A stretch of 64,000 nucleotides of DNA from Methylibium petroleiphilum PM1 (GTDB lineage Bacteria; Pseudomonadota; Gammaproteobacteria; Burkholderiales; Burkholderiaceae_C). The notes beneath the pieces were generated by a model. That model saw nothing but the letters and a program-made list of their open reading frames with translations. It did no database searches and was not told the origin of the DNA. Each line of letters begins with the position of its first letter. Positions within the stretch are counted from its first letter, which is position 1. This document shows positions 37,533 to 40,951 of the stretch, piece after piece. The stretch is taken from contig NC_008825.1 in the NCBI RefSeq assembly GCF_000015725.1, forward strand, positions 1,984,001 through 2,048,000, read 5' to 3'. The position numbers and the translations under genes are program-made.

Positions 37533-39440
37533 TCACACCTTGTGGGCGATGTCGCTAGCCATCCTCTGGGAAAAGGCATCTAGAGGCATCACGCCGAGGT
37601 CTTGGTTACCCCGGGCGCGCACCGCAACGGCCCCCGCAGCCTTTTCCTTGTCGCCAACGACAAGGATGTACGGAAGCTTTTGCATGGAATGCTCTCGGAT
37701 TTTATACGTGATTTTCTCGTTGCGCAAATCGACGCCGGCTCTAACTCCTTGTTTTTGCAGCGTTTTCGCAATCTCTGCGGCGTAGTCGGCCTGCCCGTCG
37801 GTGATGTTGAGCACCATCACCTGCACCGGGGCGAGCCACGCCGGTAGCGCGCCGGCATGCTGTTCGATGAGGATGCCGATGAAGCGCTCGAGGCTGCCGA
37901 CGATCGCCCGGTGCAGCATCACCGGGAACAAGCGCTCTCCGCTTTCGGCCACGTAGACCGCATCCAGGCGCTCCGGCAGCGAGAAATCGACCTGCATCGT
38001 GCCGCACTGCCACTGGCGACCCAGGGCGTCCTTCAGCGTGTACTCGATCTTCGGGCCGTAGAACGCGCCATCACCCGGCGACACGACGAATTCGCAGCCC
38101 GACGCCCGCAGGCTCTCCATCAGCGCGTGCTCGGCCTTGTCCCAGACCGCATCGGAGCCGATCCGCTTCTCGGGCCGGGTGGCGACCTTGTAGATGATGT
38201 CGTTGAAGCCGAAGTCCTTGTAGACCTTCTGCAGCAAGGCCGTGTAGGCCACGCACTCCGGCAGGATGTGCTCCTCGGTGCAGAAGATGTGTCCGTCGTC
38301 CTGCGTGAAGCCGCGCACCCGCATGATGCCGTGCAGGCCGCCGGTGGGTTCGTTGCGGTGGCACTGCCCGAACTCGCCATAACGCAGCGGCAGGTCGCGA
38401 TAGCTCTTGATGCCCTGCTTGTAGATGAGGATGTGGCCCGGGCAGTTCATCGGCTTGAGCGCGTAATCACGCTTCTCCGACTCCGTGACGAACATGTTCT
38501 CCCTGTACTTGTCCCAGTGTCCGGTCTTCTCCCACAGACCCTGGTCGAGAATCTGCGGCCCCTTGACCTCGAGATAGCCGTTGTCGCGGTAGACCGCGCG
38601 CATGTACTGCTCGACCTGCTGCCAAACCGTCCAGCCCTTCGGGTGCCAGAACACGAGGCCCGGCGCGTGCTCGTCGAGGTGGAACAGGTCGAGTTCGCGG
38701 CCGAGCTTGCGGTGATCGCGCTTCTCGGCCTCCTCCAGCATGTGCAGATACTGCTGCAGTTCGTCCTTGCTGGCCCAGGCCGTGCCGTAGATGCGCTGCA
38801 GCATCTCGTTGCGGTGGTCGCCGCGCCAGTAGGCGCCGGCCACCTTCATCAGCTTGAAGTGCCTGAGCTTGCCCGTGCTCGGCACGTGCGGGCCGCGGCA
38901 CAGGTCCTCGAACCGCCCTTCACGGTACAGCGACACATCCTGGCCGGCCGGAATGCCGGCGATGATCTCGGCCTTGTAGTCCTCGCCGATCGACTTGAAG
39001 TACGCCACGGCCTCGTCGCGCGGCAGCACGCGGCGCTCGACCTTCTCGTCCTTCTTCGCCAGTTCCGTCATCTTGGCCTCGATGGCCGCCAGATCCTCCG
39101 GCGTGAACGGGCGCTTGTACGAGAAGTCGTAGTAGAAGCCGTTCTCGATGACCGGTCCGATCGTCACCTGCGCTTCGGGGAACAGTTCCTTCACTGCGTA
39201 CGCCAGCAGGTGGGCCGTCGAGTGGCGGATCAGGTCGAGGCCGTCGGCATCCTTGTCGGTGACGATGGCGAGCCGTGCATCGCCCTCGATGCGATGGCCC
39301 GTGTCGACCAGCTTGCCGTCGACACGGCCGCCCAGCGCCGCCTTCGCGAGCCCGGTGCCGATCGATGCCGCGACCTCGGCCACGGTGACCGGGCCGGGGA
39401 ACTCGCGTTGCGAGCCGTCGGGAAGCGTGATCACGATCAT
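37533..39440 (-). CDS. thrS: Threonyl-tRNA synthetase
   Basis: 635 aa, normal length. TGS domain (about 1-60), editing domain with HSTAH and, further on, CRGPH, class II core ([50 protein letters not shown]) and C-terminal anticodon-binding domain. Charges tRNA-Thr. First gene of the thrS-infC-rpmI-rplT-pheST-ihfA series. Its leader holds a Thr-rich peptide and a terminator hairpin (separate entries), suggesting control by charged tRNA-Thr. Confidence 0.97.
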
Positions 39441-39458
39441 GAAAGAGCCTCTGAAATG

Positions 39459-39484
39459 AAAAAAGCGCGGTGGAGACCGCGCTT
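39459..39484 (-). terminator. Attenuator hairpin in the thrS leader
   Basis: On the minus strand AAGCGCGG (39484-39477)/CCGCGCTT (39470-39463), loop TCTCCA, runs straight into a six-base U-run (39464-39459), ending 18 bases before the thrS ATG. GCGGTC (39480-39475) of its left arm and loop can instead pair with GACCGC (39520-39515) inside the leader peptide gene, which would prevent the terminator. Confidence 0.8.
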
Positions 39485-39507
39485 CGAGACGAAAAGAACA
39501 GACGTGC

Positions 39508-39561
39508 TCAGACTGCGGTCGGACAACCCTGGTGCATGGTGGTCGACGTTCGCGGTGTCAT
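39508..39561 (-). CDS. Threonine-rich leader peptide of thrS
   Basis: 17-codon frame, [17 protein letters not shown], ending in TGA 24 bases before the terminator stem. Five of 17 residues are Thr, with adjacent ACC ACC at positions 7-8. A possible ribosome binding site AAAGG lies 11 bases upstream. By analogy with thr, his and phe operon leaders, stalling at Thr codons 5-8 would leave GACCGC (codons 14-16) free to form the antiterminator. Completing the peptide would cover it and let the terminator form. Identified here by reading the sequence; expression is inferred. Confidence 0.65.
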
Positions 39562-39606
39562 AACCCGGCGTGCCTTTCTCGTCCTTGTTCGTGGATGCGA
39601 GCGCGC

Positions 39607-39612
39607 ATTGTA
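39607..39612 (-). promoter_or_regulatory. Candidate -10 element of the thrS operon
   Basis: TACAAT on the minus strand (5 of 6 to TATAAT) places the transcript start near 39600, giving a leader of about 160 nt that includes the Thr peptide and attenuator. The -35 region (ATCGGG, overlapping the aceA stop dyad) is poor. Confidence 0.5.
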
Positions 39613-39634
39613 GGCGCCGCCCGCTGATCCCCGA

Positions 39635-40951
39635 TCAGTGGAACTGCTCTTCCTCGGTCGAGCCGGTCAGCGCCTTGACGCTGGACGAGCCGCCCTGAAT
39701 CACCGTGGTGACGTCGTCGAAGTAGCCGGCGCCGACTTCCTGCTGGTGCGACACGAAGGTGTAGCCCTGCTCGCGCGCCTTGAACTCGGGCTCCTGCACC
39801 ATCTCGACGTAGTGCTTCATGCCCTCGCCCTTCGCATAGGCCTGGGCGAACTGGAAGGTGTTGTACCAGTTGATGTGGATGCCTGCGAGGGTGATGAACT
39901 GGTACTTGTAGCCCAGCTCCGAGAGCTTCTCCTGGAACACGGCGATCGTCTTGTCGTCCAGGTTCTTCTTCCAGTTGAACGACGGCGAGCAGTTGTAGCT
40001 CAGCAGCTTGCCCGGGTGCTTGGCATGCACGGCCTGCGCGAACTCACGGGCGAATCCCAGGTCCGGCGTGCCGGTCTCGCACCACACGAGGTCAGCGTAG
40101 GCGGCGTAGGCAACACCGCGGCTGATGGCCTGCTCCAGGCCGTTCTTCACGCGGTAGAAGCCTTCCTGGGTGCGTTCGCCGGTCAGGAATGGCTTGTCGT
40201 TGGCGTCGTGGTCGCTGGTGATCAGGTTGGCGGCCTCGGCATCGGTCCGGGCCAGCACGATGGTCGACACGCCCATCACGTCGGCGGCGAAGCGCGCGGC
40301 GATCAGCTTCTCGCAGGCTTCCTGGGTCGGCACCAGCACCTTGCCACCCATGTGGCCGCACTTCTTCACTGCGGCGAGCTGGTCCTCGAAGTGCACGCCG
40401 GCGGCGCCCGCGGCGATCATGTTCTTCATCAGTTCGAAGGCGTTCAGCACGCCGCCGAAGCCGGCTTCCGCATCGGCCACGATCGGCAGGAAGTAATCGA
40501 TGAAGTCCTTGTCGCCGGGGCCCGTGCCGCGCGACCACTGGATCTCGTCGGCGCGCTTGAAGGTATTGTTGATGCGGCGGACCATGGTCGGCACCGAGTC
40601 GTAGGCGTACAGCGACTGGTCGGGATACATGGTCTCGGAGGTGTTGCCGTCGGCGGCAACCTGCCAGCCTGACAGATACACGGCCTCGACGCCGGCCTTG
40701 GCCTGCTGCATCGCCTGACCGGCGGTGATCGCGCCGAAGGCATTGACGTAGCCCTTCTTCGACGCGCCGTTGCACTGTGCCCACAGCTTTTCGGCGCCGC
40801 GCTTGGCGATCGTGTACTCGGGCTGCAGGCTGCCGCGCAGGCGAACCACGTCGGCAGCGCTGTAGCCGCGCTTCAGGCCTTTCCAGCGCGGGTTCTCCGC
40901 CCAATCTTTCTCGAGGGCGGCGATCTGTTGTTCACGGGTCGGTTGGCTCAT
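39635..40951 (-). CDS. aceA: Isocitrate lyase
   Basis: 438 aa. The catalytic loop KKCGHMGGK (near residue 190), ARTDAEAA and [12 protein letters not shown] identify the enzyme. It splits isocitrate into glyoxylate and succinate in the glyoxylate shunt for growth on acetate, fatty acids or PHB-derived C2 units. No malate synthase is next to it. Its stop overlaps a CTGATC-GGG-GATCAG dyad. The upstream region has a repeated motif and a palindrome. Confidence 0.96.

Follow-up and report, generated by a model that had tools for sequence, protein, structure and literature searches.

A threonine-coding leader upstream of thrS in Methylibium petroleiphilum and other Burkholderiales: a probable ribosome-mediated transcription attenuator

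How do Burkholderiales control the gene for threonyl-tRNA synthetase? The question is raised by the short region that precedes thrS in a 64,000-nt stretch of the Methylibium petroleiphilum PM1 genome (hereafter, the window), where thrS shares its strand with aceA, infC, rplT, pheS, and pheT (NCBIfam names); the L35 gene was recognised by eye. The nearest named thrS, 90% identical, belongs to a Methylibium MAG (L031). An original prediction made from the sequence had described, in front of thrS, a TACAAT hexamer, a 17-residue frame with five Thr codons, and a GC-rich hairpin ending in six U, and had proposed that GACCGC within the frame pairs with the terminator arm as an antiterminator. All of these elements are present where they were described (Table 1), with the Thr codons of the upstream open reading frame (uORF) at positions 2, 5, 7, 8, and 15 and the U-run 18 nt from thrS. 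One feature, a near-invariant 17-nt core at the start of the uORF, had been missed.

Table 1. The thrS leader and flanking genes, in window coordinates
Feature	Position	Strand	Remarks
aceA (isocitrate lyase)	39635-40951	-	Upstream of thrS on the same strand; NCBIfam name
-10-like hexamer TACAAT	39607-39612	-	Read from the sequence
Putative transcription start	near 39600	-	Inferred from the position of TACAAT
Purine-rich ribosome-binding block GAGAAAGG of the uORF	39573-39580	-	From the sequence and relatives
Near-invariant 17-nt core GTTATGACACCGCGAAC	39548-39564	-	Takes in the ATG and codons 2-5; contributes to strand 1 of the 1:2 helix
Leader peptide uORF, 17 codons	39508-39561	-	ATG 39561-39559, TGA 39510-39508
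Region 2, GACCGC, candidate antiterminator strand	39515-39520	-	Pairs with 39480-39475; lineage-matched in relatives; stalled-ribosome folding
Region 3, GCGGTC, part of the terminator 5' arm	39475-39480	-	Complementary to GACCGC
Intrinsic terminator hairpin AAGCGCGGTCTCCACCGCGCTTTTTT	39459-39484	-	Six T at 39464-39459 (U6 in RNA)
thrS, threonyl-tRNA synthetase (proposed controlled gene)	37533-39440	-	NCBIfam TIGR00418 thrS equivalog, 711.5 bits

We consider it very likely that this leader is a classical ribosome-mediated transcription attenuator through which thrS expression responds to charged tRNA-Thr, and the interpretation offered by the original prediction is largely supported. In the proposed mechanism, RNA polymerase would start near position 39600 and a ribosome would begin to translate the 17-codon leader. 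If charged tRNA-Thr were scarce, the ribosome would stall early, at Thr codon 2, 5, or 7, and cover the 5' strand of the leader (the core and the Thr codons), region 2 would be freed to pair with the 5' arm of the terminator (2:3 pairing), the terminator would fail to form, and thrS would be transcribed. With plentiful Thr the ribosome would instead reach the stop codon and cover region 2, and with no ribosome at all region 2 would be held by the 5' strand (1:2 pairing); the terminator would form in both cases. The proposal is built on the anatomy of the leader and its conservation, on lineage-matched pairing, and on static folding of pre-terminator RNA with masked ribosomes, all computed here. 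We infer where transcription starts, that the uORF is translated, that the folds compete kinetically, and that the response depends on Thr.

The window by itself makes a weak case, and the significance comes from relatives. A terminator scan of the window was at chance level (1 site versus 0.8 in shuffles), folding of the leader was unremarkable (z = -0.74), and GACCGC and GCGGTC, although complementary, did not pair significantly in the window alone (p 0.19, 100 shuffles). The window scan found neither a two-hexamer sigma-70 site nor a -35 element, so the promoter call rests on one -10-like hexamer.

Upstream DNA taken from 110 thrS loci found by protein similarity (30 + 80, including some near-duplicates) contained GGTTATGACACCGCG with at most two mismatches in 64 regions and exactly in 56. 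A census of the window's own family that was not based on the motif gave a usable thrS start in 33 of 36 genomes; the 17-nt core was exact at 27 of these 33 loci, within two mismatches at 29, and absent from four (L017, L026, L027, and L186). Across 399 genomes of the order, the 17-mer occurred with at most one mismatch in 50, one copy each, compared with 4 matches for the reversed pattern. All 45 exact matches and one of the five one-mismatch matches sit upstream of thrS; the other four do not (G299, G193, G201, and G051). Among 200 genomes drawn from the phylum, all five exact matches fell within the order, and three one-mismatch matches lay outside it, compared with five for the reversed pattern.

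For the analysis of the leader itself we used 113 loci that had the core (at most three mismatches to a 15-mer) and a start codon, 107 of them unique. L042 was left out: in this Polaromonas MAG the core has decayed and ATA stands in place of the start codon, so that the leader ORF has apparently been lost. In the 107 leaders, codon 2 is ACA in 104, codon 3 CCG in 106, codon 4 CGA in 101, and codon 5 ACT in 87 and ACG in 19. These codons are uncommon in thrS itself: over 66 of these loci, ACA accounts for 3.6% and ACT for 4.5% of the Thr codons in the gene, and CGA for 3.5% of those for Arg. At 73 conserved four-fold sites in thrS (61 genes), the mean share of the commonest codon is 0.68 and its highest share is no more than 0.90. 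The core is fixed even at rare synonymous codons, and codon choice does not explain its sequence. Choosing loci by motif inflates this conservation, although bases +11 to +13, which lie outside the choosing 15-mer, are also conserved (101, 106, and 106 of 106). In 99 of the 107 leaders, GAAAGG or one of eight variants starts 13-20 nt ahead of the ATG, and the ribosome site together with positions -3 to +13 corresponds roughly to the footprint of an initiating ribosome.

Several explanations of the core were considered. Its role as strand 1 of the 1:2 helix accounts for part of the conservation; pairing with region 2 as the whole reason was rejected, because region 2 varies between lineages and the core does not. 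A trans-acting role found no favor in near-matches within the core's own genome (both strands, at most three mismatches), which numbered nine including the site itself versus seven for the reversed pattern. We rejected an anticodon mimic for ThrRS by eye only.

The leaders are 10-27 codons long, and outside the core Thr is their commonest residue. In frame, Thr occupies 192 of 940 codons (20.4%) after codon 5, whereas the other two frames have 2.3% and 3.8%. The number of Thr codons per leader nevertheless runs from two, in 25 of the 107, up to seven, and judged by these leaders Thr richness is not essential. Some lineages without the core have short Thr-rich ORFs of their own, among them Aquitalea (..KHWRTTTTRHSHAS), Vogesella (MFKRTTTTRISR), Mesosutterella (MFDCIVFGQTTLTRF), and Rhodanobacter, where the ORF ends in MATTRFHC. 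ORFs with three Thr in seven codons were present at 79 of 114 core loci versus 7.0 expected (the core's own Thr codons counted), at 11 of 63 non-core Burkholderiales-side loci versus 3.2 expected, and at 2 of 59 other gammaproteobacterial loci versus 3.0 expected. Two of the 11 non-core ORFs belong to frames within the end of aceA, and the non-core loci have an excess of Ala as well (14 versus 5.5 expected). The three-in-seven test is coarse, as excesses of Phe at core loci (22 versus 1.2) and of Val at other gammaproteobacterial loci (19 versus 5.8) make clear. By this measure the Thr signal is strong where the core is present, weak in the pooled non-core loci though plain in some of their lineages, and absent outside. 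Five of the 182 loci were left out of these counts and of the operator counts below: three on the Lysobacterales side (L098, L102, and L109) and two of unclear place (L100 and L101).

The Lysobacterales-side thrS leaders (L098, L102, and L109, with L219 placed among them by likeness) have another common block, GCCGGYCGAGYGTGYGACATG, noticed by eye, whose last bases are the start codon of a short ORF; this ORF codes for one to three Thr, and in three of the four leaders two or three Thr stand in a row. By eye, this block is a parallel element.

The strict conservation at the start of the uORF might point to a different sensor, a leader that responds to ribosome initiation or to generally slow translation, with the core as the signal and the Thr codons incidental. 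Such a sensor would suit the match between the conserved stretch and the initiating-ribosome footprint, a core that stays fixed at rare codons while the Thr count drops to two, and the presence of the IF3 and L20 genes after thrS. The prominence of Thr outside the core and the Thr-rich uORFs of several core-less lineages argue against it, and we regard it as unlikely. A related idea, which we put forward tentatively and with more doubt than conviction, gives GTTATGACACCGCGAAC itself a signalling role at the RNA level: the ribosome that initiates on the leader or makes its first elongation steps, or some other factor, would read it as leader translation begins. The decisive step would then be the holding of a ribosome at codon 2 (ACA), and the remaining peptide could drift almost freely. 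In that case thrS, together with infC, rpmI, rplT, and pheST if these are co-transcribed, would respond to the state of early translation in addition to Thr.

Attenuation responsive to tRNA-Thr requires a terminator and a competing strand, and both are maintained in relatives. A terminator is present in 102 of the 107 unique core leaders, and region 2, located around the uORF stop codon, pairs with its 5' arm. GACCGC lies inside the peptide gene in the window, as had been predicted, but in many relatives region 2 sits just past the stop codon. The paired sequences differ between lineages and include, besides GACCGC:GCGGTC of the window, GTTCGCGC:GCGCGGAC, GCCGCG:CGCGGC, CCGCGCA:TGCGCGG, TAGTCG:CGGCTA, and AGCTGCGT:GTGCGGCT. 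Grouping the 102 leaders into 87 clusters, which lessens but does not remove shared ancestry, we found that the 2:3 complementarity score averaged 17.55 with a leader's own arm and 16.35 (sd 0.24) with the arms of other clusters, a difference reached in none of 20,000 permutations. The best pairings fell within -21 to +22 of the stop codon in 82 of 87 clusters versus 56.2 expected; tested leader by leader, only 12 of 61 reached p 0.05. With the Thr codons also kept, neither of the two features whose loss in relatives the original prediction had named as evidence against it has been lost. The stop codon lies in a hairpin loop in 19 of 107 leaders versus 6.7 in shuffled ones, a sub-lineage feature that we rejected as a general one.

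Four loci without the core (L017, L041, L053, and L085) have a -10-like hexamer and, from there to thrS, have kept a GCGCGG-type hairpin with a U-run. The hairpin starts within some 20 nt of the likely transcription start in L041, L053, and L085 (by eye), and is possibly a remnant or a 5' stabiliser.

We folded the RNA of 102 leaders up to the terminator loop with the ribosome footprint masked, a static calculation for which shuffled leaders are the fair control. A ribosome at codon 2 brought 2:3 pairing to 0.505, compared with 0.295 in shuffled leaders; the real leader was higher in 73 of 102 cases (p 2.5e-9), and the other 29 did no better than shuffled. Without a ribosome, 2:3 pairing was the same as in shuffled leaders (0.207 versus 0.211), and 1:2 pairing was 0.316 versus 0.203, with the real leader higher in 65 of 102.

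For the window leader with an assumed start at 39600, 2:3 pairing rose from 0.009 without a ribosome to 0.69 with one stalled at codon 2, 5, or 7; a stall at codon 8 gave 0.07, and a ribosome at the stop codon gave 0.003. Six assumed starts from 39602 to 39585 gave 0.52-0.70 for stalls at codons 2-7 and at most 0.08 at the stop; the value at codon 8 ranged from 0.05 to 0.67 depending on the assumed start, and the ribosome-free value was 0.19-0.29 for starts 39602, 39590, and 39585. A start at 39606 lengthens the RNA by six bases; its 5' end is then a competitor for region 3, and pairing under a stall is only 0.14-0.15. When any upstream partner of the terminator arm was counted, stalled exceeded stop in 50 of 102 leaders and the reverse held in 18, with no difference in the window (0.695 versus 0.686). 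With the partners separated, the counts were 70 and 7, a contrast to be expected in part, since region 2 is masked whenever the ribosome stands at the stop codon. The folding check that had been proposed fits for pre-terminator RNA with masked ribosomes and does not discriminate for the full-length leader, where the equilibrium probability of the terminator is 0.87-0.90 in every ribosome state. Because equilibrium always favors the terminator, any switch must be kinetic; other attenuators likewise make their choice while RNA polymerase is moving.

The position of the promoter bears on a simpler explanation, in which the hairpin is an ordinary terminator of aceA, thrS has its own promoter after the hairpin, and the uORF arose by chance. 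In the stretch from 75 to 22 nt ahead of the uORF, 49 of 105 leaders have the pattern TA[ACG]AAT, compared with 4.25 expected from shuffling, and in 33 of those 49 it stands at -48 to -51; past the uORF its frequency is that of chance (3 of 107 versus 3.55 expected). This conserved hexamer lies 5' of the uORF and may place the transcription start upstream of the peptide gene, whereas a start downstream of it had been named as evidence against the original prediction. At least 27 of the 107 leaders, by a narrow pattern, have a tRNA T-arm upstream of the uORF (L076, L082, L112, L153, and L160 are of this type), and no leader has both a T-arm and TA[ACG]AAT. The tRNA matches in L076, L082, and L112 have, by eye, the anticodon GAC (Val). 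Since these leaders have a T-arm upstream and no promoter hexamer in the searched stretch, they may be transcribed from the tRNA promoter. An aceA terminator would agree with the gene order of the window and with its chance-level terminator scan. The leader, however, stays with thrS where a tRNA gene takes the upstream place, the U-run comes very close to thrS in the window, promoter-like hexamers lie before the uORF and are at chance level after it, and the Thr enrichment is frame-specific, which together make an aceA terminator with a chance uORF highly improbable.

The attenuator that we favor resembles the E. coli thr operon leader (Rfam Thr_leader) in its short ORF with control codons, its alternative 1:2, 2:3, and 3:4 pairings, and its U-tract terminator. 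It differs from leaders of amino-acid operons in that it controls an aminoacyl-tRNA synthetase, has a near-invariant RNA core, and in many members has few Thr codons. The Thr_leader covariance model had no match in the window, nor in 39400-39700 at E up to 10, and the T-box model had none either, the only gathering-level match in the window being a tRNA. No Rfam family fits the leader: the only one appearing in 39400-39700 at E up to 10 was RF02871 (ncS54, a Burkholderia sRNA; E 6.7), which we took as a chance match, with no gathering-level match at the loci of eight relatives, five of them of Burkholderia/Paraburkholderia type. Among the literature matches listed, as far as their excerpts go, we saw no leader-peptide attenuator of a proteobacterial thrS; the likeliest source, Lopatovskaya et al. 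2010, which reportedly deals with attenuation of amino-acid and aminoacyl-tRNA operons, lay outside that search.

The original prediction knew of no described case, but a Thr leader, thrL, had been predicted directly upstream of thrS in Streptomyces lividans, according to an excerpt of that report (PMC8079986). The likeness lies in a Thr-containing leader peptide before thrS; the excerpt describes a different peptide with two Thr, a leaderless start, and one hairpin, and reports no U-rich tract (PMC8079986), whereas the Burkholderiales leader is broadly conserved and combines a U-tract terminator with a paired antiterminator. Leader attenuators of pheST, trpS, and leuS are excerpted as classical attenuation of synthetase genes, for other amino acids and genes, in gammaproteobacteria and Streptomyces (PMC1262725). 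Classical attenuation of synthetase genes and a predicted Thr leader before a Streptomyces thrS are already known. The tandem T-boxes on thrS of Bacillota also place the gene under leader-RNA control that senses tRNA-Thr status, and differ in binding the tRNA directly and having no leader peptide (PMC12452182, excerpt). In Burkholderia cenocepacia, short 5' UTR transcripts include those of the tRNA-synthetase genes BCAL3373 and BCAL3436, according to the part of the report at hand (PMC5688073).

Feedback control of the same gene takes another form in E. coli, where, in the excerpted accounts, ThrRS binds anticodon-like hairpins in its own mRNA and blocks the ribosome (PMC11088916, PMC9976931). 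We wrote a pattern for this operator hairpin after reading the sampled loci; this post hoc pattern finds the E. coli operator (L252) and places a hairpin just before the ribosome-binding site of thrS at 25 of 60 loci sampled across the rest of the class, with none in shuffles of those 60. The leader core and the operator hairpin do not co-occur in the sample. Repression by ThrRS through such an anticodon-mimicking operator, although it is the known mode in E. coli (PMC11088916, excerpt) and would fit the hairpins of other gammaproteobacteria, is scarcely credible here, as the pattern matches none of the 177 sampled Burkholderiales-side loci (114 core and 63 non-core), with the proviso that it could miss divergent operators. 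The expectation that this solution differs from that of E. coli agrees with that count. The search upstream of betaproteobacterial thrS that had been suggested turned up a Thr-coding uORF with a U-run terminator in many relatives.

If the attenuator is real, many Burkholderiales would control an essential synthetase by leader-peptide attenuation and not by E. coli-style self-repression, which would make thrS a clear case of one gene switching its sensing mechanism within a class, and the leader could readily serve to report Thr-tRNA charging. Behind thrS, the genes for IF3, L20, L35, and PheRS would possibly come under the same control. Between rplT and pheS, a GC-rich hairpin (GGGGCCGA...TCGGCCCC, window 36124-36090, minus strand) is followed after a few bases by five U and could be a second attenuator; by eye, we saw no Phe-rich ORF near it. 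The infC gene probably begins at an AUC codon (window 37425-37423, minus strand), as its reading frame extends upstream of the first ATG and an ATG-started IF3 would not have the first 12 positions of TIGR00168. IF3 genes are known to use rare start codons, which fits an AUC start.
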